Below, in pieces: positions 1 to 11,451 of a stretch of DNA of 20,292 nt. A model generated the notes under the pieces. The model did no database searches, was not told where the DNA came from, and saw only the letters and a program-made list of their open reading frames with translations. The DNA is taken from the IMG/VR virus record IMGVR_UViG_3300022837_000124, positions 1 through 20,292 of that record. One strand, 5' to 3'. Each line of letters starts with the position of its first letter. Position 1 is the stretch's first letter. Position numbers and translations under genes: made by a program. Source of the DNA: a virus.

Positions 1-9
1 ACGTTGCAT
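1..9 (-). CDS. possible start of a further leftward gene (edge, three codons only)
   Basis: An ATG at 9..7 follows the TGA of the preceding 38-residue gene in a TGAATG arrangement, with GGAG about 15-20 bases upstream. Only Met-Gln-Arg is inside the window, so nothing can be said about its product. It is listed because the tight packing of all genes to its right makes another coupled gene likely. It could equally be chance. Confidence 0.25.
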
Positions 10-126
10 TCAATCAGCATCATCATCTCCTTCCGCGAGTATCTCAAGCAGCTCCGTTATCCTAGCAAGCTGCGCGAGTACCGTCTCAACATCTTCTTCT
101 GTGAGTTCGATTGTTATTTTTTTCAT
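10..126 (-). CDS. small acidic phage protein, 38 aa
   Basis: This short reading frame begins MKKITIELTEEDVETVLAQL and ends in a run of Asp residues. It has an amphipathic, Leu- and Glu-rich pattern that looks like one long helix and may form a coiled coil. Its ATG overlaps the stop of the DUF3310-like gene upstream in an ATGA junction, which implies translational coupling. The pattern of overlapping starts and stops continues through the next four genes, supporting it as a real gene despite its size. I do not recognise a family, and no catalytic motif is visible. Confidence 0.6.
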   Translation of the reverse strand: MKKITIELTEEDVETVLAQLARITELLEILAEGDDDAD

Positions 127-380
127 TTGACGTTGTGTATTTCAATCAGCAAGTCGATGCAGTGCTTGGCTTTCTCTAAGTCGGACAAGGGTTGCCCCTT
201 TAACTTCCACCTAGTTATATACTTAACCACATTACCTTCTAGTAGCGACAAGCCGTTCTTCTCTGCGTACTCGGCAGGTTGGATCGCCATGTTCTTATAG
301 TGTGTCCCGCCCGTCTGTTTCTGTAGGGGACTGTCCTTCTTCGGTTCCACGTTCAAGTTCGGTATCTCTGCTGTCAACAT
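123..380 (-). CDS. DUF3310-like phage protein, 85 aa
   Basis: The C-terminal part carries the pattern of the small phage family DUF3310: GGTHYKN near residue 24-30, then a helix containing GNVVKYITRWKLKG, then DLEKAKHCIDLLIE. The family is widespread in phages and its biochemical role is not settled. The frame is open upstream to 482, but ATG at 380 is chosen because GGGAGAAG sits six bases before it and because the upstream extension is low-complexity and overlaps a recognisable gene. Even so, the first 86 bases overlap the end of that upstream gene in another frame. The stop overlaps the start of the next small gene (ATGA). Confidence 0.8.
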   Translation of the reverse strand: MLTAEIPNLNVEPKKDSPLQKQTGGTHYKNMAIQPAEYAEKNGLSLLEGNVVKYITRWKLKGQPLSDLEKAKHCIDLLIEIHNVK

Positions 381-486
381 TCTCTTCTCCCTTCTGTTCT
401 GGTTTCTCAAAGATTTTTGCCCAGTTATCCCCGAACTCGTGCAGGGGGACGAACGTGGGCCTGCGCTTACTTCCTTTGCCATTCAT
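295..486 (-). CDS. small conserved phage protein with MNGKGSKRRP N-terminus, 63 aa
   Basis: The first 28 residues (MNGKGSKRRPTFVPLHEF followed by a DNWAKIF stretch) match a short motif protein often seen in tailed phages, with a basic Gly/Lys/Arg start and an xNWxxIF segment; no function is established. The C-terminal half, after about residue 32, is acidic and low-complexity, and it is the part that overlaps the DUF3310-like gene in another frame. AGAGG lies seven bases before the ATG. The ATG overlaps the TGA of the 31-residue gene upstream, so expression is probably coupled. Confidence 0.75.
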   Translation of the reverse strand: MNGKGSKRRPTFVPLHEFGDNWAKIFEKPEQKGEENVDSRDTELERGTEEGQSPTETDGRDTL

Positions 487-578
487 TTGTTCGCCTCTTT
501 AATTTGTCTAAGCTGCGCCGCTATTTCTAATTGGCGGGCGAACAGTTTAAGCATGGCTCTTATATCTTCGTTAGTCAT
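483..578 (-). CDS. very small phage protein, 31 aa
   Basis: The frame reads MTNEDIRAMLKLFARQLEIA followed by AQLRQIKEANK and stop. It is a single predicted amphipathic helix. It overlaps its upstream neighbour by eight bases and its downstream neighbour by the ATGA stop-start junction, which is the spacing expected of a translated gene in this chain. No family is recognised. It is too short for homology to mean much, and confidence rests on the overlap pattern. Confidence 0.5.
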   Translation of the reverse strand: MTNEDIRAMLKLFARQLEIAAQLRQIKEANK

Positions 579-705
579 CATAAGCTCCGTGGTCTGCTAA
601 GTACTCAGCACGATCACGCGCTAGCTCAGCAGGGTCAATGTAGTCTTCGTCTTGCTCGTCTTGCCATCTATCTAAGTCTGCGTCTAACGAATCTCTGTTA
701 CTCAT
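571..705 (-). CDS. small acidic phage protein, 44 aa
   Basis: The protein starts MSNRDSLDADLDRWQDEQDE and continues with an ELARDRAEYLADHG helix. It is strongly acidic. Both ends overlap neighbours by eight bases (ATGAGTAA upstream, ATGACTAA downstream), so ribosomes finishing one gene can restart on the next. I do not recognise it. Small acidic proteins in phage early regions are sometimes host inhibitors or DNA mimics, but nothing in the sequence shows that here. Confidence 0.55.
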   Translation of the reverse strand: MSNRDSLDADLDRWQDEQDEDYIDPAELARDRAEYLADHGAYDD

Positions 706-889
706 TAGCGTGTCCTCCACTAGTCCCTACAGTTAACTTCCACTTTTCCGCAGCCTCTTCTTTACTGCCATCATCTGGTTTGGTATCACTTTCGTCTTCG
801 CCTTCAGGGCCTCTTTGTCTATTCCCTTCACCATTTAATTCGGTCAAGTCTTGTTGGGTCTTTCTGAAGTCTTTATCTTTACTCTTCAT
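698..889 (-). CDS. small hydrophilic phage protein, 63 aa
   Basis: The protein is charged throughout (MKSKDKDFRKTQQDLTELNG at the start, Asp/Glu-rich centre, then EEAAEKWKLTVGTSGG). It is probably largely disordered. The ATG lies 17 bases after the polymerase stop with GAGG eight bases upstream, and the stop overlaps the next gene by eight bases. No domain is recognised. The gene belongs to the same transcript as the polymerase and the chain of small genes to its left. Confidence 0.6.
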   Translation of the reverse strand: MKSKDKDFRKTQQDLTELNGEGNRQRGPEGEDESDTKPDDGSKEEAAEKWKLTVGTSGGHANE

Positions 890-905
890 TAGCTCGCCCT
901 CTTAA

Positions 906-3587
906 TTAACACTCTCCGTAAGAGGCTCCGAAACCACCTTCACAATCCAAGGGCAAGCCTTCTGCCCAATCAGGTGTCTGCTTCATGCAGGCGTATATAA
1001 ACTGCATGGCGTCTTCTGCCTCGTCTTCTTTTGCCACTGCACCTACAGCATCATGAACCGTCATGACAACCTTGTACTTCTTAGCTATCAACAGCAGGTG
1101 ATGCCCAATGATTAACCTAGCTAGGGCTTGGCATAAGTTCTCTACAACTTTACCGCCGTATATCCTGTTCGGTATGACTGAGCGTCCTCTCTTAGTGTCG
1201 TAGACAAGTTCTTCTCGTCCTGTCTCCTCGTCAATCCTCTTGCGTAGGTTCGGGTACTTTATATACAGCCCGTTAGGTAGTCGTATACCCCGTTTGCCTT
1301 CCACCTTGAGTAACCCGCCCCTACCTAGCGTTACGCTCTGGTTTTTAACCATGGCAGTCAAAGCATCGTTGCAAGTGCGCCATAGCTTTGTAATAGAGGG
1401 GTTAGCCCTACGGTAAATCTGTATGATCCTGTCGCACTCTTCTTGCGCTAGCTCTACCCCCATCGAGTTGAGCTGCGCTTTAAACTTAGCAGCACCCATA
1501 CCGTAGCCACAGTTATGCGCAATTACCGGTCCGCTATCCGTCCATATTGTGAAGCGATTGTTCGGCCCTGCGTAGGCGAGATCGTAGGTCATTAACTTCT
1601 TGCTGCAACTTTTGGATGCTTCTAGTGTTTCGCATGTTTTGGCTTCGGGTTGCGAACCGTATGTTGTTTGGCTCGTACCCTTTGTCATTGTTGATGCGGT
1701 CCATTTCCAAGCTCGGGCTATCCCATCCTTCAAGTGTCTGTACATACGCGAGGAACTTTGTTCGGTCCTCTCTCCACTCGTGGTGAACCCGTATACCCCT
1801 ACCCCCGTAGTCTTTGTGCCTGCTATTTCCTGAGTTATGGCACCGGGAGATAGCAGAAGAAAGTCTGTTGAGGAGTCGTGTTCTATGGGAATCATCTGGC
1901 ATGGCTGCGGCATACTTCCAATACCTTTTTTGATTGCTTGCTTGCTTAGCACAGATTGGGCAGCGAGTAGTCCTAAAGTTTTTAAGGTTGTGCCGGTCGA
2001 TTGTATACTCGGGTCGCCCGCAATCGCATTTAACGATAACTGCCTTAACGCCTCCCCGCACTCCCCTGACAAAGCCTCTAACGGTAATTTTGCCGCTCCG
2101 GTCACCAATGCTTGGGAGAGGGTGCTTTCGTCTTGCACCACTGACTGCGTCTCCTGCCACTTGCCCCCGCACAATATCCTGTGGTCGGGTGTTAACCAAC
2201 TCCCGCAAAGACTCACAGTTTCTTTCAAACCCTTCTCTAGTAATCCTTGGTGGCATACCCAATTTTCTCCGTCCCAAAGTCTGTCCGATGTGGTTACCTG
2301 TTCTATCGGCTTCCACCCTGTTTCACACAGTACCCTAGTCCCAGCACCGATACAACCGAGTATCGTGGTCTTACCTATAAACCTCTCGTCCTTGTTGATC
2401 TCTTCCTCTGGCTTGCCGTATATAGAAGAAGCCATAACCTTGTACACATCGTCTCCTGCTGCAAAAGTACCGACCAGATTATCTTGTTCTGCGAGCCATG
2501 CCAAGGTTCTTGCTTCAATTTGTGAAGAATCGCAGTCGAGGAAAGTATAGCCTTGAGGGGCTAGCATGGCGTTTTTAAGGATTGAGCCACGGGGAAGGTT
2601 CTGCATGTTGATCTTGTCGTCCCCGCCCCACCGTCCGGTGTGCGCAGCGTAGTACCTTAGCGGTATAGGCAGTGCGCCCCTGTTACCGATGTTTATAAAC
2701 CTCTCTGTGCGTGTCTCTTCAATAGTAGACTTTACCCCTAGCCGCGCCCCTATAAGTATCTGCACAACAGGGTTCTCATGCTCTCTAAGGGCTTGAAAAG
2801 CCTCGTCTGTTTTGGCAAAAGCTAAAGTTTCTTTGCCAGTGGTTAAACTGACCTTAACGGGGGGTATAACACCTTGCGCTATAAGTAGCTCTGCGAACTG
2901 CGGGTTACTCATTATCTGTTCGCGGGTAACACCTGCCTTACCAAGCCACGTAGCCTTCTTCTCTTTAAGCTCGTCTAAGTGACCCTCTAGCAAATAAGAC
3001 CCTACTTGTAGTACGGGTTCAGTAAACATCCGTAAAGTTAAGTCGATAAGTTTAAGCTCTACTACAGGGAAACCCTCAGCCATAAGACACTTGAATAGTT
3101 TGTAAGTGATTATCGTGTCGTTCTTGCAGTAACCCGCATACGCCTCCAAATCCTCCTCCGAGAAGTCTTCGCGCCGCTTACCCAACGCGTTCAAAACCTC
3201 AGTGCCTTTCTTGCCTATGCCGTAGTGTTCAGTGAGTGCCCTTAGACTGCCACCTACTTGCGTGCCGTGTATTGCCCTAGCCATCGAGAGCGTGTCTGCT
3301 ATGCGTGCAGGTTTTATACCGAACCGCCAACTTAAAATAGCCATATCAAACATAGCATTGTGCGCAATGGCTAAAGAGTTTTCCCAATCAAACGAATCTA
3401 AAAATTCCTGCGTTTCCTTTTCCGTTCCAGAAAACCATGTGGTAGAACTAGAACTACTATCATCTATTTGAACGGAGACGCCAATGACTTCAAAGCTGTC
3501 ACTGCGTATGTATTCTTCCGTAGTAAGTTTAGACAAACTGTATTGCCTGTCGTAATAAGTTTCAAAGTCGAGCGTTATGAATTTCAT
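906..3587 (-). CDS. family A DNA polymerase with 3'-5' exonuclease, interrupted by an intein
   Basis: Replicative phage DNA polymerase, 893 aa as translated and 612 aa after removal of the intein. The N-terminal DEDDy proofreading domain shows Exo I (LDFETYY, Asp7/Glu9), Exo II (AHNAMFD, Asn77/Asp81) and Exo III (YCKND, Tyr153/Asp157). The polymerase domain shows motif A (DCDSSQIEAR, Asp353/Glu358), motif B (Arg403 and Lys406 before the intein, YGMG after it) and motif C (TVHDAV, His845/Asp846). There is no 5'-3' exonuclease domain, as is usual for phage enzymes. The intein splits motif B between Gly411 and Cys693; splicing would restore ILGCGYGMGA. GAGG lies nine bases before the ATG, and the start overlaps the VRR-NUC gene by 26 bases. 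Activity should depend on splicing, because motif B contacts the incoming nucleotide. Confidence 0.95.
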   Translation of the reverse strand: MKFITLDFETYYDRQYSLSKLTTEEYIRSDSFEVIGVSVQIDDSSSSSTTWFSGTEKETQEFLDSFDWENSLAIAHNAMFDMAILSWRFGIKPARIADTLSMARAIHGTQVGGSLRALTEHYGIGKKGTEVLNALGKRREDFSEEDLEAYAGYCKNDTIITYKLFKCLMAEGFPVVELKLIDLTLRMFTEPVLQVGSYLLEGHLDELKEKKATWLGKAGVTREQIMSNPQFAELLIAQGVIPPVKVSLTTGKETLAFAKTDEAFQALREHENPVVQILIGARLGVKSTIEETRTERFINIGNRGALPIPLRYYAAHTGRWGGDDKINMQNLPRGSILKNAMLAPQGYTFLDCDSSQIEARTLAWLAEQDNLVGTFAAGDDVYKVMASSIYGKPEEEINKDERFIGKTTILGCIGAGTRVLCETGWKPIEQVTTSDRLWDGENWVCHQGLLEKGLKETVSLCGSWLTPDHRILCGGKWQETQSVVQDESTLSQALVTGAAKLPLEALSGECGEALRQLSLNAIAGDPSIQSTGTTLKTLGLLAAQSVLSKQAIKKGIGSMPQPCQMIPIEHDSSTDFLLLSPGAITQEIAGTKTTGVGVYGFTTSGERTEQSSSRMYRHLKDGIARAWKWTASTMTKGTSQTTYGSQPEAKTCETLEASKSCSKKLMTYDLAYAGPNNRFTIWTDSGPVIAHNCGYGMGAAKFKAQLNSMGVELAQEECDRIIQIYRRANPSITKLWRTCNDALTAMVKNQSVTLGRGGLLKVEGKRGIRLPNGLYIKYPNLRKRIDEETGREELVYDTKRGRSVIPNRIYGGKVVENLCQALARLIIGHHLLLIAKKYKVVMTVHDAVGAVAKEDEAEDAMQFIYACMKQTPDWAEGLPLDCEGGFGASYGEC
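1512..2354 (-). mobile_element. intein coding segment inside DNA polymerase motif B (281 residues)
   Basis: Residues 412-692 of the polymerase frame. Block A is CIGAGTRVLCETGWKPIEQV with the nucleophile Cys412. Block B is LTPDH, giving the TxxH pair at 466-469. Block F is TYDLAYAGPNNRFTI, and block G is GPVIAHN followed by the +1 extein Cys693. All residues needed for class 1 splicing are visible (Cys1, block B Thr/His, penultimate His, terminal Asn, +1 Cys). Between about 485 and 660 the in-frame sequence is rich in Ser, Thr, Ala and Gly and has neither LAGLIDADG nor HNH motifs. The endonuclease is instead found in another frame of the same DNA (1534-2256). Confidence 0.93.
1534..2256 (-). 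CDS. HNH homing endonuclease nested in the intein, -1 frame relative to polymerase
   Basis: A 240-residue protein on the same strand as the polymerase but in a different frame, lying wholly inside the intein DNA. With ATG 2256 as start, KCDCG (Cys77, Cys79) and CPIC (Cys99, Cys102) form a likely zinc-binding module. YGGRGI at 150-155 and DRINNDKGYEPNNIRFAT at 186-203 form the core of the phage/intron HNH family that nicks or cuts DNA for homing. A Lys/Arg/Leu-rich coiled-coil tail follows (about 214-236). The frame is open to GTG 2316. ATG 2256 is preferred because GGAG stands ten bases before it. A later start near the GDRSGKITV segment cannot be excluded. It would act as a freestanding nuclease that spreads the intein into empty polymerase genes. 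Confidence 0.88.
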   Translation of the reverse strand: MPPRITREGFERNCESLRELVNTRPQDIVRGQVAGDAVSGARRKHPLPSIGDRSGKITVRGFVRGVRGGVKAVIVKCDCGRPEYTIDRHNLKNFRTTRCPICAKQASNQKRYWKYAAAMPDDSHRTRLLNRLSSAISRCHNSGNSRHKDYGGRGIRVHHEWREDRTKFLAYVQTLEGWDSPSLEMDRINNDKGYEPNNIRFATRSQNMRNTRSIQKLQQEVNDLRSRLRRAEQSLHNMDG

Positions 3588-3867
3588 TTATGTGAGCCTC
3601 AAGCTCGTGTAGGTTGTTTTCGTTTATAACAAGTGCAGTGCCACCCGATTTACGAATCGCAGCTATCTCCCTGTCTTGTAGTGCAGTAGTCTTGCCTTTA
3701 CCTGCCTTGCATTCAACAGCGAGAAAGCTGCCGTTAAAGCAACATATAACATCGGGCACTCCGCTGCGACCCATACCATAACTGGCGGGAAAGAAGTAAT
3801 ACGCGCCATGCTCTTTGAGCAATCGCACTACTTTGTTCTTCACTTTCTTTTCGGGGGTTAAAGCCAT
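3562..3867 (-). CDS. VRR-NUC family nuclease, 101 aa
   Basis: A small PD-(D/E)xK nuclease of the VRR-NUC type, common next to phage replication genes and thought to act on branched DNA. The core is visible: SGVPDVI (Asp39), then FLAVECKAGKGK (Glu52, Lys54), then LQDREIAAI with the conserved Gln64, and a GGTALVIN strand. The length suits a single-domain phage member. The frame is open upstream to ATG 3942, but that start lies beyond a hairpin terminator (3907-3933). ATG 3867 (MALTPEKKV) or ATG 3885 are the plausible starts; neither has a good Shine-Dalgarno. A weak TTTACA-17-TACGCT pair lies just upstream. The gene overlaps the polymerase start by 26 bases. Confidence 0.85.
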   Translation of the reverse strand: MALTPEKKVKNKVVRLLKEHGAYYFFPASYGMGRSGVPDVICCFNGSFLAVECKAGKGKTTALQDREIAAIRKSGGTALVINENNLHELEAHINEIHNARL

Positions 3868-3906
3868 GCAAGGAGCGTAGCGCATAGTTTGGACTTTGTA
3901 AAGCAC

Positions 3907-3933
3907 AAAAAAACCCCGCACAAAGGCGGGGTT
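3907..3933 (-). terminator. rho-independent terminator of the 8.3-4.0 kb leftward operon
   Basis: On the minus strand, AACCCCGC and GCGGGGTT form an 8-bp stem around a 6-base loop, followed immediately by seven T residues. It lies between the ribbon-helix-helix gene and the VRR-NUC/polymerase genes, so it would stop or attenuate transcription before the replication genes. Confidence 0.88.
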
Positions 3934-3945
3934 AATCTTCATACC

Positions 3946-3964
3946 AACCTACAATTTGTAGGTT
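3946..3964. repeat. palindrome family 1, copy 1
   Basis: Perfect 8-bp arms AACCTACA and TGTAGGTT around centre ATT. It overlaps the last bases of the ribbon-helix-helix gene and stands just upstream of the terminator. Confidence 0.85.
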
Positions 3965-4154
3965 AGTCGTCGAAATCTTCGGGTAAAGTTTCTTGGGTTT
4001 TTATTACATGCGCTTCAAGTGCATCGCGCATCGCGGTTGTGTAGTTGGTGTAGTTCTCTTTGTAGTAGTCTAACACCTCTGTTGCGATGCGCAGGTTTAC
4101 GTGTGCCATAGCAGGCTTAACACCCTTGCCTCTGCGCTTAACTGTTGAGTTCAT
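3963..4154 (-). CDS. ribbon-helix-helix (CopG/BrnA-like) DNA-binding protein, 63 aa
   Basis: A basic N-terminus (MNSTVKRRGKGVKPAM) precedes HVNLRIATEVLDYYKENYTN and then a second helix, YTTAMRDALEAHV. This strand-helix-helix pattern, with alternating hydrophobic and polar residues in VNLRI, is that of ribbon-helix-helix repressors. Such proteins bind palindromic DNA as dimers. AGGAG stands seven bases before the ATG, and the gene overlaps the end of the upstream 318-residue gene by 17 bases. It is the last gene of the operon before a terminator, and a family-1 palindrome overlaps its 3' end. A role in regulating this operon is an inference. No toxin partner is seen next to it. Confidence 0.7.
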   Translation of the reverse strand: MNSTVKRRGKGVKPAMAHVNLRIATEVLDYYKENYTNYTTAMRDALEAHVIKTQETLPEDFDD

Positions 4155-5094
4155 TAGCTATCTCCTCTGATACCCAAAACATTCCTTCGGCGTGCTTAAA
4201 GCCAACATTAGATATGAAGCTGTTGTCCTCTGCCATTTTAAGCAGTCCTATCGCGCCGCGCACTTTGTCAGGTAATAGCTCTCGCTTGTAGGTGCGTACT
4301 TTTGTGTCGCGATGCTGCCATACATGGTATCCGTTCTCTGCGGCTTGTAAGTACAAACCTTGACCTCGGCTCTGCGCCTTGGCGGCTTCACTTACTAACG
4401 TAAGGTCTTCTGCGGCGTCTTTATGCGCTGCTACATACTCTCCGATGCCTTTAGCTTTGAAGTATTGCTGCACTGCTTGGCTAAGAAGCGGGTCGGAAAA
4501 TGCAGCTTCCTCTAGCTCTCGCACGATATTACGCTTTGCGTTACCTAGTTTATATTTCGTGTCTTGGTGCGCGGAGGCTACTGCTCTGTCTATTATCACT
4601 GCGGTGGCGCTAAGAGTCTCAACCTTGCTCATACCATAAAAGTATTTGCGGATTATAGAGGCAGCCTTAGAATCACTAGTAGTTTCCATGCACGTCCCGC
4701 GACGCAACGCGCCTACTATACGGTTGTTAGTAAAGTTCAACGCACCTGTATCGTCGTTAACGTATACCGCTCCCACAGGTTCTAACCCATCGAAAACAAG
4801 CATGGAATGGAAGGTAGCATTGAAGGATAGATCAACGCAAAAGTTTAAGCGCATCATTTTAGGCGCAAGGTGGCGCAGTAGTCTGTACGCTGTCCTGTGC
4901 GCTTGTTTTCGCTCCCTGTGCTGATTTGGGTCTGCCTCTGGACTAAACTCTGTGAGCGGGTAATTAAACTTCTCCTCCTGATAAACATTACTGGGCATGT
5001 TGAGGAAGCGCGTTACGCTCCCGCTTTTTATTTGCTTTGCCGCGTTAGCTGCTCGGCTCGCGGGGCGGTGACTATATACTTGTGTAAAATTCAT
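4138..5094 (-). CDS. conserved phage protein of unknown function, 318 aa
   Basis: A soluble protein with no signal peptide or membrane segment. It starts MNFTQVYSHRPASRAANAAK, has a central segment around LRLNFC/FHSMLVFDGLEPVGAVYV that looks like beta strands, a helical charged middle (KRNIVRELEEAAFSDPLLSQ), and a C-terminal half with alternating aromatic and charged residues. I do not recognise a family. AAGGAG lies six bases before the ATG, overlapping the stop of the upstream gene. Its constant company is the MoxR ATPase, VWA protein and 284-residue protein upstream, so it may be an accessory subunit or substrate of that complex (inference from position only). Confidence 0.85.
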   Translation of the reverse strand: MNFTQVYSHRPASRAANAAKQIKSGSVTRFLNMPSNVYQEEKFNYPLTEFSPEADPNQHRERKQAHRTAYRLLRHLAPKMMRLNFCVDLSFNATFHSMLVFDGLEPVGAVYVNDDTGALNFTNNRIVGALRRGTCMETTSDSKAASIIRKYFYGMSKVETLSATAVIIDRAVASAHQDTKYKLGNAKRNIVRELEEAAFSDPLLSQAVQQYFKAKGIGEYVAAHKDAAEDLTLVSEAAKAQSRGQGLYLQAAENGYHVWQHRDTKVRTYKRELLPDKVRGAIGLLKMAEDNSFISNVGFKHAEGMFWVSEEIANELNS

Positions 5095-5104
5095 GTTGTT
5101 CTCC

Positions 5105-5959
5105 TTACCACTCGTAGGTTTTAATTATTTCGTCAACTTCTTTTTTAACTTCGTCGCGCACTTCGGGCTGATCTTTGAACATATCCTTTGTCTTGCCCTC
5201 CATGATCTCTTCTAACTTCTTGCGCGCTTCTTCTAACTTGGGGTCATTGGTAACATTCATGTGCTTAAGCATACGGCATAGCTCCAGTGGGTTAGACACA
5301 AAAGTATCATGCCACCGTTTGTCGTCTGCGTCCCCTTGCACCGCGCACTTTGCACTTATCTGATCGAGTTGTTTGCGTAGCCGCCGTTCATTTTCTTTGA
5401 CTGCCTCTCTGATCTTGCGCTCTACTTCCCCGTCACACGCGGCGCGTAACTCTTGCATCTCCTGCTCTGGTAGGTCTATGCACAAGTGCCCACTAGCGGG
5501 TACGGGCGCAACAACAAAGCCCCATGCGTACTTGTTAAGTATCTGTTCAACAAGCGGATAGTCTTCCTCATTAAATATGTCACCTCTATATTCTCTAGCA
5601 ACCTCACGATAGGTAGCGTACTTGTTCTCAAAGGTCTTAACCAAACGGTCAAACTCTTGATGCTTCCAGTTATGCTGCGCTTTGTAGTCGATGAACAAAC
5701 TTGTTGGGCATAGGCGATAACCCTTGTCATCCCAAGGCAGCGTCATAGCCGAATGCCATAACCGAACATTGGCGGCGTGCTTTTGTATATCTTTGTGTCC
5801 CACTGATCCCACCATCAGGTTGTCGTACATACGCATTGCTCGAGGGTCGGCGTTCTTGCCCTTGGCAACTTCGTTCTCTAGGTCTTTGTTGCGCTTGCTT
5901 GCACCCCACACACTAATGTTTAGCTTAACTAATACTGCACTATTTGCTATTGCACTCAT
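5105..5959 (-). CDS. unknown protein associated with MoxR-VWA pair, 284 aa
   Basis: A soluble, helix-rich protein. The N-terminus (VLVKLNISVWGASKRNKDLE) is followed by a region with LWHSAMTLPWDDKGYRLCPT, and the C-terminal third is a long charged segment (EVERKIREAVKENERRLRKQ onwards) likely to form a coiled coil. The opening and the layout recall DUF3150-type proteins that accompany phage MoxR-like ATPases, but I cannot confirm that by eye. GGAG stands seven bases before the ATG, directly after a family-1 palindrome. It is co-transcribed with the MoxR and VWA genes and probably belongs to the same functional unit. Confidence 0.85.
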   Translation of the reverse strand: MSAIANSAVLVKLNISVWGASKRNKDLENEVAKGKNADPRAMRMYDNLMVGSVGHKDIQKHAANVRLWHSAMTLPWDDKGYRLCPTSLFIDYKAQHNWKHQEFDRLVKTFENKYATYREVAREYRGDIFNEEDYPLVEQILNKYAWGFVVAPVPASGHLCIDLPEQEMQELRAACDGEVERKIREAVKENERRLRKQLDQISAKCAVQGDADDKRWHDTFVSNPLELCRMLKHMNVTNDPKLEEARKKLEEIMEGKTKDMFKDQPEVRDEVKKEVDEIIKTYEW

Positions 5960-5970
5960 TGCTGTTCTCC

Positions 5971-5989
5971 AACCTACAATATGTAGGTT
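5971..5989. repeat. palindrome family 1, copy 2
   Basis: Perfect arms AACCTACA and TGTAGGTT around centre ATA. It fills the gap between the VWA gene stop and the Shine-Dalgarno of the 284-residue gene; GGAG starts immediately after the right arm in the transcript. Confidence 0.88.
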
Positions 5990-7194
5990 TAATCAATTTG
6001 AATTGTTTTGCCCACAGGGGCGGTTATCTTCGTGTCGTTCGTTATTGCCCACAGAATTGGAACAGTCCAATTCCCCCAACTATTAATCTTGCCATCAGTC
6101 AGCATGATTACGCAGTCAGGCTTGATGCCCTTCTCTTTCAGGTAGTCAGATACACACGTCGGATCAGTGCCACCTCCACCTGTTGCAGTTTTCATAGCAG
6201 GGGCAGCGGTCAGTTCGTCGCTGGAGTAAATCTCATGACTCTCCACCTGTCCGTCCCAATCAATGAAGTGTATCTTGTCGATAGATACTGCCTTAACAAT
6301 ACCAAGTATCTCGCTCGTCACATCTCTGAGTCTATCCTTGAAGAACATAGAACCCGAAGTGTCCCGCGCAATCACCACCTCATTGATGCTGTTACCTTGT
6401 AACGTAGGCATAATCACATCTTGGTGCAGGAATCTACGGTTAGGTCGTCGCCAAGTAGATTGCTCCTTCTTTCTACATGCCGAGTTCATAAACATACGCA
6501 GCAGCGCGCGCCAACTTATCTTGGGCGTTACCAGTTCACCCAAGCCCAGGGCATCCTTTAAGCCCCCTGCACCTGCTTTAGCATCCGCATGTAGTCCTTG
6601 TCGTATCGCCTGCTTGATGTCTTCGGTTAGCTTCTCGTTATCCTCGGCGTTAAGTTTCTTCGCTCCCTCCCAATCGTGGTTGTCGAACCCTGCGTCGCCT
6701 TCGCTCTCGCCCTCGCCCTCGCCGCCACCTCCTGCTTGCTCCTGCTCAAGCTCTCGGAAGATACGCTTCACCGTCCACTCGTGATACTTAGGGTCATACA
6801 AGCCAATAGCCTTGCCGTTCTCATCTATAGGCATCTCCGTTAGTATCCGCTGCGGGTCAGCCACTTGGATACGGTCGTTAATCCAATAGTCGGTCGCCAT
6901 GTTGGCTCGCATAGCATGTTGCTCGGCAAGTCTGCGGTAAGTCACCAAGTGCATACCCGCCTTGTGTAACCACTCATGCACCATGACAAACGCCGCGCCC
7001 TTATCCCCCTCATTCTTCACGTCCTTGAAAAGAAAGTCAGGGTTGAACCAACAGTCGCGCCCATTAGTTGCCGCTGTTGGTACGTCAGTAGTGATATAGG
7101 TGTTGCCGTGCATAGCCACACCACGCAGTAACCCGAACTCTTTCGAGCGCATTAGCCCGATCTTAATCGCTTTGAATCTTCTATCTGCTAGCAT
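5989..7194 (-). CDS. metallopeptidase-like / VWA domain protein, module 1 (401 aa)
   Basis: A two-part protein of the kind annotated as putative metallopeptidase plus VWA-like domain (DUF2201-type). The N-terminal part has HEWLH at 73-77, an HExxH zinc motif. A flexible Gly/Glu linker lies at about 153-168. The C-terminal VWA-like domain has the MIDAS residues DTSGSM at 278-283, the GGGGTDP loop at 339-345, and LTDG at 365-368. VWA proteins of this type act with MoxR AAA+ ATPases as adaptor or client-remodelling pairs. The MoxR gene is immediately upstream, separated by 30 bases that hold a family-1 palindrome and GGAG eight bases before the ATG. It is a clear paralogue of the protein at 9088-10320. 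Confidence 0.9.
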   Translation of the reverse strand: MLADRRFKAIKIGLMRSKEFGLLRGVAMHGNTYITTDVPTAATNGRDCWFNPDFLFKDVKNEGDKGAAFVMVHEWLHKAGMHLVTYRRLAEQHAMRANMATDYWINDRIQVADPQRILTEMPIDENGKAIGLYDPKYHEWTVKRIFRELEQEQAGGGGEGEGESEGDAGFDNHDWEGAKKLNAEDNEKLTEDIKQAIRQGLHADAKAGAGGLKDALGLGELVTPKISWRALLRMFMNSACRKKEQSTWRRPNRRFLHQDVIMPTLQGNSINEVVIARDTSGSMFFKDRLRDVTSEILGIVKAVSIDKIHFIDWDGQVESHEIYSSDELTAAPAMKTATGGGGTDPTCVSDYLKEKGIKPDCVIMLTDGKINSWGNWTVPILWAITNDTKITAPVGKTIQID

Positions 7195-7206
7195 AATTTA
7201 ATCTCC

Positions 7207-7225
7207 AACCTACATTATGTAGGTT
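7207..7225. repeat. palindrome family 1, copy 3
   Basis: Perfect arms AACCTACA and TGTAGGTT around centre TTA, filling the gap between MoxR module 1 and VWA module 1. GGAG follows directly after the palindrome in the transcript. Confidence 0.88.
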
Positions 7226-8289
7226 TACAATAAGTCTTCGTTGTCTGCTGCCCACAGTGCAAAGTCACCGTTGGTGAATGCGATCTGTCGTTTGGTCGCA
7301 TGCCGCGCCAATGCCACACAAAATATGACTTGGAATTCCTCCTCCATACGGCGCAGGTACTTAAGAATATTGCTCAAGTTATCCTTCTCGACGTGCTGTA
7401 GTAGCCCGAAGGTAAGTACCGCCCGCGCACCTGCGTCATCTGGGATCATCGCTGTGTCGGGTGAAGTAGTAATCGAACTCACAGATGGCAAGCTCTCTTG
7501 GAACCTGATAAAGGAAGAGATGGACTCCGCAAACGGCGCGCCCGCTGCACCTGTTAGAGAAGCGACAAGTGACTCTCCATCGAAGTGTTCCATTTGCCAA
7601 ACGATACGACTACTAATCTCAAGGGTGCGAGGCGATACCACATTGTCCTGTGGGTTAGCGGGGTGAAATATAAACTCGTTGTTCGCTCCATCGAGGTACG
7701 AGGCTAGAGCTTGTGGGTATCTGTCCACCCACGCCATAACAACAGGGTGAATCCCATTAGCTGCCGCCCATTGCAACCACTCGGTCGCGTTAGGTTTACG
7801 CATTATAAGCTCGACTACACGCTGCCTCGTGTGCTGCGCGAGTCCATCGCCCACACCGTCCGTGTCCATGTTGCCTGTCATAAAGATAATGCTACCGTCT
7901 GGAATATCTAGGTCACCTAGTCTAGGTCTAAATACTTCTAACATAGGGTGAAGCATATTCTTTACTGGGTCGGCTCCCTTGGTAAACTCGTCAAGGCATA
8001 TCACTACAGCCTCTCCTGTAGTCAGCCCGAACCGTGCGTTGGGGTAATAGCGCGTTACCTTGTTCTCGTGGTCGATTACAGGCATTGCCACGTCACCCAA
8101 GTCTAGGTTAGGTACATCAACCATCGACAGGGCGTAGCCTGTAGCCTGTGCTATAGCAGCAGCAATTATTGATTTACCTACACCGGGTTCGCCTCTTAGC
8201 ATATAGCGCACGTTGGGGTTAGCGAGGACAAGCGCAGCCGCTTGCTTGTGGTTTACGGTTCGCATCTCGTTTAGCAAAGATTCACTCAT
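7225..8289 (-). CDS. MoxR-type AAA+ ATPase, module 1 (354 aa)
   Basis: AAA+ ATPase of the MoxR class. Walker A is GEPGVGKS at 33-40, Walker B is VICLDE at 96-101, sensor 1 is the Asn140 of IIFMTGN, and a candidate arginine finger is in QHTRQR (155-157). The start at 8289 is chosen over an upstream frame extension because GGAG lies seven bases before it and because Walker A then falls at the same residue as in the paralogue. MoxR ATPases are known to work with VWA partners to remodel or mature other proteins, and the VWA gene follows directly. The gene is first in its operon, 60-70 bases downstream of a strong promoter with a palindromic operator. Confidence 0.93.
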   Translation of the reverse strand: MSESLLNEMRTVNHKQAAALVLANPNVRYMLRGEPGVGKSIIAAAIAQATGYALSMVDVPNLDLGDVAMPVIDHENKVTRYYPNARFGLTTGEAVVICLDEFTKGADPVKNMLHPMLEVFRPRLGDLDIPDGSIIFMTGNMDTDGVGDGLAQHTRQRVVELIMRKPNATEWLQWAAANGIHPVVMAWVDRYPQALASYLDGANNEFIFHPANPQDNVVSPRTLEISSRIVWQMEHFDGESLVASLTGAAGAPFAESISSFIRFQESLPSVSSITTSPDTAMIPDDAGARAVLTFGLLQHVEKDNLSNILKYLRRMEEEFQVIFCVALARHATKRQIAFTNGDFALWAADNEDLL

Positions 8290-8306
8290 TGTCGTTCTCC
8301 GTTGGT

Positions 8307-8325
8307 AACCTACATATTGTAGGTT
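8307..8325. repeat. palindrome family 1, copy 4
   Basis: Perfect arms AACCTACA and TGTAGGTT around centre TAT, in the 5' leader of the MoxR module 1 gene, between promoter and Shine-Dalgarno. Confidence 0.88.
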
Positions 8326-8349
8326 GGTTTTTAAGGTTAAAGTTTTATC

Positions 8350-8389
8350 GTACAATTATATTGTACCACACTGTGGTACAGAATGTCAA
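8350..8389 (-). promoter_or_regulatory. sigma-70 promoter with overlapping palindromic operators
   Basis: On the minus strand, TTGACA (8389-8384) and TACAAT (8365-8360) are separated by 18 bases. A perfect 9-bp-arm palindrome TGTACCACA-C-TGTGGTACA (8362-8380) occupies the spacer and the -10. A second, smaller palindrome GTACAAT-TAT-ATTGTAC (8350-8366) covers the -10 and start region, which also holds TATAAT at 8360-8355. The layout is that of a promoter closed by a dimeric repressor. It would drive the MoxR module 1 operon. Confidence 0.82.
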
Positions 8390-8845: not shown

Positions 8846-9091
8846 TTACTTCTTGCGCCCTGCAAGCTTAGCTACCGCGAGCGCCGCACTTGATATTGCT
8901 TTCACTGAGTGCATACCGTCTTCAACATCTTGTTCGTAGGCGTGGTAGGTGTAAAAAGATTCACCTCCGTCCTCGCCCCTGTTGTACTCGTTAGAAAATA
9001 TCAAGCACCCGCTAAGCTCGGCGGTTATGCGCTCTAGCTTTTCAGCGTCAACCACGTACTGCGTGTTATTTACGGCAACTATAAAGTTCAT
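8846..9091 (-). CDS. small phage protein of unknown function, 81 aa
   Basis: Starts MNFIVAVNNTQYVVDAEKLE, with a likely short beta segment followed by a helix, an acidic middle (YNRGEDGGESF) and an Ala-rich basic tail ending AKLAGRKK. No family recognised. The ATG overlaps the TGA of the upstream VWA gene (ATGA), with GGAG eight bases ahead, so it is translationally coupled to the MoxR-VWA module 2. It may be a small partner of that module, which is inference from position. Confidence 0.75.
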   Translation of the reverse strand: MNFIVAVNNTQYVVDAEKLERITAELSGCLIFSNEYNRGEDGGESFYTYHAYEQDVEDGMHSVKAISSAALAVAKLAGRKK

Positions 9092-10320
9092 ACTCTTCGC
9101 TCCAATTGAATTGTTTTACCCACAGGGGCAACGATTGTTTCACGCAAGTTGTGAATGCCCCACAGTATCGGGCAGTCCCATTCACCCCAACCCAAGACCT
9201 TGCCGTCAGTCAACACGATGGTTGCATCAGGTTTGATCTTCTTCTCTCGCAAATAGGCAGCCACACAGGTCGGGTCTGTACCCCCTCCACCATGAGGTTT
9301 AGTCAGAGTGCGCCAGTTCTTAAAGGTGCTGCTTGTATACTCCTCGTGCGCACAGACTGAGCCGTCCCAATAGATCAGGTGTATCTTCGCTACCTCTAGC
9401 TGTCGGGCTAGACCCTCGATCTCACTCATGCAAACATCAAACGAGTCGTCGAAGAACATAGAGCCTGATACATCAGGTGCGACTACTAGCTCTTTGATAC
9501 ACTCTCCACGCATAGTCGGCATGACTAGCCCAGTGGTTACGAAGAACCTGCGGTCGATACGCCTAAAGGTAGCTCTGGTTGCCGCAGTGCAAGTCGCTCG
9601 AATGAAGTGCTTCATCTGCTCCACCCAATCAACCTTCGGTGCGAGCAGTTCACCCAGAGCCAACGATCCTCCGTCTGTACCTTTGCCTACTTTCTTAGCA
9701 GCCATGAGACCTTGGCGTATAGCGGTGCTTACATCAGACTGTAGAGATTCCTTCTCCTTGGCTGTCATCTCCTTAGCCTCGTCCCAACCGTGGTCGTCAA
9801 AGCCTCCACCGCCTTCACCCTCGCCCTCGCCTTCACCGCCTTCCCCGCCTTCACCCTCTTCTTGCTTCTCGGCATAAAGAATGTCGAACACCTTCTTCAC
9901 CGTCATGCCTTTGAAGCGCGGGTCACACAGACCGATTGGTTTACCTTTCTCGTCACGCGGCATGGCAACAATTGTCTCGTCCTTGTCTGCCTCCATGATG
10001 ATTAGGTTTATCCATGTATCCATAGCCGAGTTAGCCGTCTTATGACACAGCTTCCACAGCGGCTCGTATATCTCAAGATGCCGCGCTGCCTTGTGCCAGT
10101 TCTCATGCAGGGTAATGAACCCCGCACCTTTGTCCCCCCACTTGAATATAAAGTCGGGGTTGTACTTCTCGTCCCTACCATTAGTACAGGCAGTGGGAAC
10201 ATCTCGTGTGAACTCCCTCGTGCCCATCATCATTACTGGGCCTAGCTCAACGAATTGCTTACTGCGCATAATCTCAATGCGCTTGCGCTTGAAGTCGCGC
10301 TCTAGTTTTGAATCACTCAT
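9088..10320 (-). CDS. metallopeptidase-like / VWA domain protein, module 2 (410 aa)
   Basis: Paralogue of the protein at 5989-7194 with the same order of parts. HENWH at 72-76 is the HExxH motif. A Glu/Gly repeat linker lies at about 155-173. The MIDAS is DVSGSM at 283-288, followed by GGGGTDP at 344-350, VLTDG at 369-373, and the shared ending ILWGIH...APVGKTIQL. The start at 10320 is chosen because it overlaps the stop of the MoxR gene (ATGA) with AGGA six bases ahead; a longer frame to 10347 has no support. The tight stop-start overlap implies roughly equal amounts of ATPase and VWA partner. Module 1 instead has a 30-base gap with a palindrome, so the two pairs differ in their coupling. 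Confidence 0.9.
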   Translation of the reverse strand: MSDSKLERDFKRKRIEIMRSKQFVELGPVMMMGTREFTRDVPTACTNGRDEKYNPDFIFKWGDKGAGFITLHENWHKAARHLEIYEPLWKLCHKTANSAMDTWINLIIMEADKDETIVAMPRDEKGKPIGLCDPRFKGMTVKKVFDILYAEKQEEGEGGEGGEGEGEGEGGGGFDDHGWDEAKEMTAKEKESLQSDVSTAIRQGLMAAKKVGKGTDGGSLALGELLAPKVDWVEQMKHFIRATCTAATRATFRRIDRRFFVTTGLVMPTMRGECIKELVVAPDVSGSMFFDDSFDVCMSEIEGLARQLEVAKIHLIYWDGSVCAHEEYTSSTFKNWRTLTKPHGGGGTDPTCVAAYLREKKIKPDATIVLTDGKVLGWGEWDCPILWGIHNLRETIVAPVGKTIQLERRV

Positions 10321-11417
10321 AGTAAATCCTGATTGCGGTCTGCCCACTCGGCAAACGCCCGTGAAGTAAACGCCAATCTACGCTTGGCATCGGTAGAGTT
10401 CTGACCTGCGAGGCGCACACCAAAGATCACTTGGAACTCATCAGTGTCGTACCCCGCATCCTGTCGGGCTAGGTAGATCATGAAAGCATCGAGGTCGTCC
10501 TTAGTCTTGATGTACTCCCCCGCACTAAACGATAGCACCGCACACGCACCTGCATTCGGTGGCATCCTTGCTGACTTCGGGTTAGCCATAATCTCTGACC
10601 AAGGGGTCATGCTCTCGTGATGCTCAATGAAGTGCAGAAGCGAGTTAGTCGCTGCGCTGCCTATCGTGCCTGTCAGTGCTGCCCTGAGTGCTGCGTTAGA
10701 GTACAAGTGGCGGGTCTTCACTAAGTTACTAGCTAGCTCAAGAGTCCTTGGCGTTACCACTGAACCCTGTCCCATAACAGACGGATTAAAAATGTACGGG
10801 TTGTTGTGCTGTCCCTTATCCCGATAAGAAGCAAGTGCGTCAGGGTTGCGGCTGACCCATGCCATAACAATAGGCTCGATGTCATTCGCTGCTGCCCAGA
10901 GCAACCACTCATCATCTGTTGGTTTGGATATCTCGATCATCGTTATGCGCATCTTGCTGTGAGCCTTGAGGCTGTCACCCACACCATCGGATTCTAGATT
11001 ACCTGTCATGAACACGATGCTGCCCTTGGGTAGCGGCAGGTCACCTAGCCTTGGGTCTTTCACTTCGAGTAGCGGGTGCAAGGTATTCTTACCCTCGTCC
11101 GAACCCTTAGTGTACTCGTCCAGACAGATGATCCTTGGCGTGCCCTCGTGCAATCCGAACTTGCCGTTGGGATAATACTTGAGCGTCTTGGACTCCATGT
11201 CGGGTATCGGCATCGCTGCGTCACTAATGCCCATGTTCGGCACGTCAATGATCGTATAGGGGTAGCCAGTAATTCTTGATAGCTCCGCCGCAATACTAGT
11301 CTTGCCTACACCTGGCTCACCTCCCAGATAGAATTTGTTGTTTGGGTTAGCCGCCATCATGGGTGCAGTGTCGCCAAGGGTTAGTGTTACGCGATCTTCT
11401 AAATGTATATTAGTCAT
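10317..11417 (-). CDS. MoxR-type AAA+ ATPase, module 2 (366 aa)
   Basis: AAA+ ATPase paralogous to the one at 7225-8289. Walker A is GEPGVGKT at 33-40, Walker B is IICLDE at 96-101, and sensor 1 is Asn140 in IVFMTGN, all at the same positions as in module 1. Shared stretches include TGNLESDGVGD against TGNMDTDGVGD and the ending FAEWADRNQDLL against FALWAADNEDLL. The start at 11417 is supported by GGAG nine bases upstream. An upstream TTG extension is rejected because it runs into this Shine-Dalgarno. The VWA partner overlaps its stop. An upstream family-2 palindrome separates it from the 297-residue gene. Confidence 0.93.
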   Translation of the reverse strand: MTNIHLEDRVTLTLGDTAPMMAANPNNKFYLGGEPGVGKTSIAAELSRITGYPYTIIDVPNMGISDAAMPIPDMESKTLKYYPNGKFGLHEGTPRIICLDEYTKGSDEGKNTLHPLLEVKDPRLGDLPLPKGSIVFMTGNLESDGVGDSLKAHSKMRITMIEISKPTDDEWLLWAAANDIEPIVMAWVSRNPDALASYRDKGQHNNPYIFNPSVMGQGSVVTPRTLELASNLVKTRHLYSNAALRAALTGTIGSAATNSLLHFIEHHESMTPWSEIMANPKSARMPPNAGACAVLSFSAGEYIKTKDDLDAFMIYLARQDAGYDTDEFQVIFGVRLAGQNSTDAKRRLAFTSRAFAEWADRNQDLL

Positions 11418-11451
11418 GGTGTTTATCTCCAAATAGGTTTTAGTGTTGTTG

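Follow-up and report, generated by a model that had tools for sequence, protein, structure and literature searches.

An HNH-type endonuclease gene nested out of frame within an intein of a phage DNA polymerase gene

The 20,292-bp stretch of viral DNA analyzed here (IMG/VR record IMGVR_UViG_3300022837_000124, positions 1–20,292; hereafter the window) carries a family A DNA polymerase gene interrupted by an intein, and within the intein DNA a second long open reading frame (ORF) resembling an HNH endonuclease runs on the same strand in another frame. An initial annotation, made from the sequence alone, proposed that one stretch of DNA would encode both a splicing protein and a separate homing enzyme. 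Analysis of this locus and its relatives suggests that intein and out-of-frame HNH-type homing endonuclease gene very probably form a composite mobile element on one DNA stretch. The features of the polymerase (host) frame are given below; a slash marks an intein boundary, pLDDT is the predicted local distance difference test score, and N and S denote nonsynonymous and synonymous changes in the HNH frame (first letter) and the host frame (second letter).

906–3587, minus strand: precursor gene for a family A DNA polymerase (with 3'-5' exonuclease and polymerase parts), 893 codons with the intein counted in
1512–2354, minus strand: intein of 281 codons within polymerase motif B (...KTTILG/CIGAG...IAHN/CGYGMG...)
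2061–2354, minus strand: N-terminal Hint half, intein codons 1–98; pLDDT approximately 95 (codons 1–90), host-frame constraint at codons 1–60
1614–2060, minus strand: intein linker, codons 99–247, predicted to be disordered in the polymerase frame; pLDDT approximately 33, host NN/NS 0.82 (codons 81–240)
1512–1613, minus strand: C-terminal Hint half, codons 248–281, with splicing blocks F and G; pLDDT 87–95, host third positions most variable at codons 261–280

The polymerase ORF matched Pfam DNA_pol_A (expect value, E, 7e-26), an exonuclease domain (E 3e-9), and PHROG 17 (E 1e-84). The intein starts with CIGAGTRVL and ends with GPVIAHN, and is flanked by FIGKTTILG upstream and CGYGMG downstream; the interrupted site is what we take to be motif B, the active-site helix of the polymerase. 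Among 50–52 homologous inserts, C1, T55 and H58 (the TxxH motif), D258, and N281 were invariant and H280 nearly so, and the +1 residue following the intein was Cys, rarely Ser. An AlphaFold model of the intein, built like the other structure predictions from alignments that excluded rows from named-phage records, revealed pLDDT values mostly near 95 for codons 1–98 and 248–281 and near 33 for codons 99–247. The best solved match to this model by VIA-align was the splicing domain of Mtu RecA (Z 15.9, 117 residues aligned, root-mean-square deviation 2.4), dozens of other inteins could also be structurally aligned to it, and the intein sequence profile matched RecA mini-inteins. No nuclease domain could be identified in the intein protein, read in the polymerase frame, and its middle was predicted to be disordered. 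Pfam and NCBIfam revealed no intein or HNH domain among the proteins of the window; the two were therefore identified from PHROG profiles, conserved motifs, AlphaFold models, and comparison of structures. By these lines of evidence the insert is an intein with residues that appear competent for splicing and a predicted Hint fold, in agreement with the initial annotation, which had recognized all the splicing motifs and no endonuclease in the same frame.

The polymerase gene itself is unbroken. A single ORF of 893 codons spans both the intein and the HNH gene, where a split intein would have two ORFs, and the HNH gene lies in the −1 frame, unlike the endonuclease domain of a large intein, which shares the frame of the splicing domains. 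The nested gene has the following layout.

1534–2256, minus strand: nested HNH-type endonuclease gene, −1 frame relative to the polymerase; 240 amino acids (AA) and a stop from ATG 2256, extendable to GTG 2316
1951–2028, minus strand: four-cysteine (zinc-finger-like) module, CDC...CPIC; C77, C79, C99, and C102 invariant in 50 homologues
1621–1809, minus strand: HNH-like core, YGGRGI ... DRINND..YEPNNIRF...N..N.R; invariant residues and a weak PacI fold match
1540–1647, minus strand: long C-terminal helix of the HNH protein (initially described as a coiled-coil tail); AlphaFold helix 204–239

The HNH ORF stops 22 bases short of the last intein base; this distance, the limits of both elements (1512–2354 and 1534–2256), and their frames had all been given correctly at the outset. 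The translated product matched three PHROG profiles, all named HNH endonuclease: 374 (E 4e-36), 3377 (E 2e-22), and 2081 (E 7e-20). The match to PHROG 374 bears out the initial reading as an HNH protein, and the two Cys pairs, YGGRGI, the full motif DRINND..YEPNNIRFAT, and the C-terminal helix on which that reading was based are all present. In the core, Y150, R153, G154, D186, R187, Y194, P196, N198, R200, F201, N207, N210, and R212 were invariant across the 50 homologues. The AlphaFold model of the protein reached a pLDDT of 82.6 with a predicted template modeling score of 0.54.

Several observations weigh against the nuclease assignment. The best solved fold match, the HNH enzyme PacI, is weak (Z 4.4, model residues 109–215), and Foldseek with the same model yielded nothing at E <0.001. 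No Pfam HNH match to the nested protein was obtained, and among solved structures the HNH profile matched unrelated proteins only, over short Cys motifs. Moreover, D186-R187 (Asp-Arg) stands where a classic HNH motif has Asp-His, and the core has no invariant His among the 50 homologues, so that these residues point to no clear catalytic base. The nested ORF is supported as a real endonuclease-like gene, the nuclease assignment coming from the PHROG profiles and the motifs.

A tblastn search with the HNH protein matched 644 phage records, 162 of them with at least 80% query coverage, and nearly all of the full-length matches, among the matches listed, sit inside an annotated DNA polymerase. 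Named carriers include Salmonella Jerseyvirus, Escherichia coli/Shigella Dhillonvirus (EP23), and EBPR siphovirus 2, and scans of IMG/VR revealed more than 80 further loci. In every one of the loci L001–L008 and L010–L093, the polymerase frame is open and the HNH gene lies −1 to it, with a third frame rich in stops; the same −1 nesting was found in eight loci from bacterial assemblies (L177–L184). Seven relatives (L094–L100) are free-standing HNH genes that are not nested. The initial annotation had proposed looking for the same offset in homologous inteins, and each full-length relative checked for this HNH type has the −1 nesting. The relatives lack the frequent HNH-frame stops that it had named as grounds for rejection; the single decayed copy is L029 (2998–3510), with a premature stop in the HNH frame and an open polymerase frame, which likely represents a decaying endonuclease. 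The insertion sites vary within motif B (TTILG/CGYGMG, FVGKT/CILGLG, and LGY/SMGWEK). In a comparison involving positions 1–6019 of the window and locus L004, the window was 99.87% identical over 6 kb to IMG/VR contig 3300028228_000308.

The number of stops expected in the other frames was estimated over 79 distinct loci by shuffling the synonymous codons of the HNH gene while keeping the protein and the codon counts. Across the HNH gene, the polymerase frame contained 0 stops against 392 expected, and the third frame contained 1504 against 1432 expected. Stops do occur in free-standing relatives. The HNH-frame proteins were 38–89% identical among homologues, while the overlapping host-frame segment diverged faster.

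The two frames were further compared by codon position, using 21 inteins of exactly 281 codons that could be aligned gap-free. At intein codons 1–60 and 261–280 the host third position was the most variable, whereas at codons 81–240 it was the HNH third position (0.46–0.61 vs 0.15–0.35 at the other two); codons 61–80 and 241–260 had a mixed pattern. Substitutions in the middle of the intein thus follow the codon phase of the HNH gene, the outcome of a constraint check suggested in the initial annotation. Overlap-aware ratios for codons 81–240, which as simple counts ignore multiple hits, were NN/SN 0.29 and NS/SS 0.22 for the HNH frame, and NN/NS 0.82 and SN/SS 0.63 for the host frame. At codons 33–60, the host frame was constrained (NN/NS 0.38) and the HNH frame hardly (0.93). 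Constraint from the polymerase frame falls on the two ends of the intein. The HNH protein is under purifying selection in the intein middle, and the constraint ratios at codons 81–240 indicate that the polymerase frame there mainly needs to remain stop-free. The HNH core overlies the predicted disordered linker of the intein. It had been proposed that splicing protein and homing enzyme share the same bases; this is literally true, but the two genes mostly divide the DNA between them and the same bases are rarely constrained by both proteins.

The arrangement is real and not unique to this phage; other HNH lineages show it in the +1 frame. The HNH proteins of a second family (family II), with a helix-turn-helix-like C-terminal tail, are encoded in the +1 frame within another intein, close to the C terminus of the polymerase (VHN/CENxxQA); examples are APSE-2, Caulobacter phage RLK, and 17 IMG/VR loci. 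The host frame across family II genes contained 0 stops against 126 expected, while free-standing members of that HNH family had the expected number. In L122 (1719–4211) and L123 (1668–4211), a family II HNH gene is nested, in another frame, in the intein-like insert of an SNF2/helicase-like protein, so the arrangement is not confined to polymerases. A third family, found in L009 and in prophage loci of Clostridia, Spirochaetaceae, Allobaculum, Actinomycetaceae, and Lachnospiraceae, uses the +1 frame at motif B. HNH third positions were the most variable in families II and III too. Out-of-frame nesting in an intein is thereby confirmed, at the level of sequence, as widespread, with more than 100 other phages and at least three endonuclease lineages. 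That the HNH genes belong to three lineages, at two frame offsets and in two kinds of host protein, argues for their repeated capture by inteins, the number of origins being an estimate from these patterns.

The distribution of the insert was consistent with mobility. A joined-flank search in Jerseyvirus revealed sister phages with an 897-bp insert, matched in two pieces, and without it, matched in one piece, at similar flank identity (92.9% for ER21 with the insert and 93.1% for dunkel without it). Sisters without the insert include MT074432 and MH370358, and the insert is thus absent from some homologues. The polymerases of L026 and L058 are 96% identical at the protein level and interrupted at the same site, with HNH proteins only 47% identical, which makes this pair a candidate for recent element replacement. 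Conversely, L064 and L084 have polymerases of 29% identity and HNH proteins of 64% identity. Sporadic presence, apparent element swaps, and neighboring insertion sites fit horizontal movement. The proposal that intein and endonuclease are transmissible as one unit is supported to the extent of this sporadic distribution and swapping.

These observations can be accommodated by an element of two genes. The first would be a class-1-like intein, excised by its own splicing from the DNA polymerase of the phage, and the second an HNH-type gene for a homing endonuclease, −1 to the polymerase frame and placed over the middle linker of the intein. Read in the polymerase frame, the DNA of this second gene would give a disordered linker free of stops. 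The endonuclease would be made separately, from an internal start codon usually accompanied by a Shine-Dalgarno-like sequence within W-D-G-x-x-W-V, and the free enzyme may cut intein-less polymerase alleles at motif B, whereupon repair would copy intein and endonuclease together. As to how such elements arise, we lean towards the view that nesting out of frame is a general route: time and again, free-standing homing genes of the HNH type would have entered the tolerant linkers of mini-inteins, in any frame, and so re-armed endonuclease-less inteins as composite selfish elements in which translation uncouples splicing from homing. In favor of this view, nesting involves at least three HNH lineages and two frame offsets, at several insertion sites and in two kinds of host protein.

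The HNH protein could instead be real without being the homing enzyme of the intein, acting as a passenger, a regulator, or a DNA-packaging factor, or it could be inactive and decaying. The unclear catalytic base and the lack of a Pfam HNH match would agree with such a role, as would the premature HNH stop in L029 beside an open polymerase frame. Strong purifying selection on the HNH frame argues otherwise, as do the sporadic distribution and the exchange of elements between polymerases. The location of the gene argues in the same direction: according to PMC6801210, all intein endonuclease domains are found at one conserved site, and the disordered middle of the intein is the usual endonuclease-domain site. 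A role other than homing is accordingly considered unlikely, and the composite homing element remains the preferred explanation.

In the composite element the HNH protein would be translated on its own, and two features of the window bear on its start.

2254–2256, minus strand: probable HNH start codon ATG, within intein codons GTA-TGC (Val33-Cys34)
2267–2270, minus strand: GGAG, putative ribosome-binding site for HNH translation, at 10 nt from ATG 2256 and 4 nt from the in-frame TTG 2262

HNH-frame start codons of the relatives cluster at two adjacent places, at intein codons 31–33 in the motif W-D-G-x-x-W-V. In the first type, to which the group of the window belongs, the ATG is formed by Val (GTA) and Cys (TGC), and in the second by an A-ending codon and Trp (TGG). 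All 25 W-V-C loci used GTA, where codon usage in the host gene predicts 5.4, AGGAG or GGAGG stood upstream in 19 of the 25 loci of the first type (8.9 expected), and an A-ending codon was found in 31 of 35 loci of the second (11.8 expected), although these statistics are uncorrected for relatedness. In approximately 12 loci an HNH-frame stop, mostly the TGA of GGT-GAA one codon before the start, lies just upstream. The HNH protein is thus most likely translated by internal initiation at intein codons 31–33, as judged from these codon patterns. A further weakness concerns the window itself, in which the spacing of 10 nt between GGAG and ATG is longer than usual and TTG 2262 lies 4 nt from GGAG, so that the exact start is less certain there; ATG 2256 or TTG 2262 is probable. 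GTG 2316 was rejected as a start, being not conserved and located where the −1 frame is closed in many relatives.

A different route to the HNH protein would be programmed ribosomal frameshifting from the polymerase frame, which would yield a fusion of N-extein, intein, and HNH in place of a free protein. Frameshifts go most often in the −1 direction, which is that of the HNH frame, and in the window that frame is open upstream to position 2322. The stops just upstream of the start in approximately 12 relatives leave no room for entry, however, which makes a frameshift from upstream impossible in those loci and rules frameshifting out as the general mode of production. In families II and III the HNH frame is +1, AAGGAGG precedes the ATG by 9 nt at several family III loci, and start-making codons are strongly enriched, all of which render frameshifting very improbable beside internal initiation.

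It might also be argued that the insert no longer splices and that the polymerase either works with the insert in place or is inactive, since inactive members occur in intein families. C1, T55, H58, D258, N281, and the +1 Cys/Ser are kept across relatives that diverge elsewhere, the insert interrupts polymerase motif B, and the Hint fold is predicted with a pLDDT of approximately 95; loss of splicing is therefore thought to have very little chance of being the explanation. Finally, an open −1 frame that is a codon-usage by-product, a chance overlap, or a sequencing frameshift masking an in-frame endonuclease (an error that the initial annotation had allowed for) could be entertained given that alternative frames are often open, with 48 ORFs of at least 80 AA in the window, but it is refuted, with next to no probability left, by 79 independent loci, an identical offset in dozens of independent assemblies, none of 392 expected stops, and HNH-frame proteins that diverge more slowly than the host-frame segment they overlap.

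The closest published case that could be found is the ShiLan domain of mycobacteriophage methylases (Arsenault, Gosselin, and Gogarten 2025, PMC11855218). It is likewise a mobile insertion in which the host frame is stop-free and an HNH gene in another frame extends from near the 5' end to near the 3' end. Read in the host frame, the ShiLan domain lacks intein motifs, and no mechanism for its splicing has been found, whereas the present insert is an intein with a confidently predicted Hint fold; the host of ShiLan is a DNA methylase rather than a polymerase; and ShiLan lacks a Shine-Dalgarno signal, for which its authors propose leaderless initiation, while the starts described here usually have Shine-Dalgarno-like sequences. 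Canonical large inteins, whether of the LAGLIDADG type or with an in-frame HNH domain as in the dCTP deaminase of cyanophage CL131 (PMC6293099), also hold the endonuclease between the Hint halves. Here, in contrast, the endonuclease is encoded by its own gene in another frame, and none is part of the intein protein. The same comparison can be extended to inteins whose host gene is broken. Where an intein is split and a free-standing gene for a homing endonuclease lies between its halves, one speaks of "fractured genes". Such split inteins resemble the present case in that the endonuclease is inside the element and yet made as an independent protein; they differ in that here the host gene and intein are unbroken, splicing would occur in cis, and the genes overlap. 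The APSE-2 genes P45/P46 (GenBank DQ092617) and the polymerase of Caulobacter phage RLK share an HNH gene out of frame in a family A polymerase intein, with another HNH lineage, the +1 frame, and a site near the polymerase C terminus. The depositors of APSE-2 annotated P46 over P45, and no remark on this overlap was found in the literature searched. Where it remarks on overlapping reading frames, PMC11855218 cites Gorbalenya 1998 ("Non-canonical inteins") and a preprint on intein architecture in actinobacteriophages, Gosselin et al. 2025 (10.1101/2025.01.02.630785, "Non-Canonical Architecture"). No description of a separate out-of-frame endonuclease gene in a cis-splicing intein was found in the literature searched; Gosselin 2025 and Gorbalenya 1998 were outside the search and may contain one.

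Inteins are usually described as one polypeptide with splicing and homing domains, and their evolution has been framed as degeneration of the endonuclease in place. Here, splicing and homing appear to be split between two overlapping genes. An intein so organized would need no fused nuclease, the nuclease could have its own expression level, and a nuclease-free intein could be re-armed without frame matching. Because annotation pipelines report the polymerase only, the nested HNH gene is overlooked in most carriers among the well-known Salmonella phage genomes sampled. The arrangement may serve as a natural test of selection on nested genes and of the uncoupling of splicing from homing. Moreover, a linker that appears to tolerate approximately 150 arbitrary residues makes the intein of interest for protein engineering.

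A similar overlap was considered and rejected in Bradyrhizobium phage ppBjS10J-1 (L103, 2461–3255), where the HNH domain shares the frame of the ERF fragment to which it is fused. The ERF gene is duplicated in this phage and its first copy continues in frame into the HNH domain; an HNH insertion apparently split or duplicated the ERF gene.

Elsewhere in the window, a small Hjc/VRR-NUC-type nuclease gene (3562–3942, minus strand) lies directly upstream of the polymerase gene and overlaps its start. Farther upstream, positions 5989–8355 and 9088–11432 of the minus strand carry two tandem pairs, each consisting of an AAA (MoxR-like) ATPase and a DUF2201 metallopeptidase/VWA protein. The two DUF2201 proteins have 48% identity over 405 residues.

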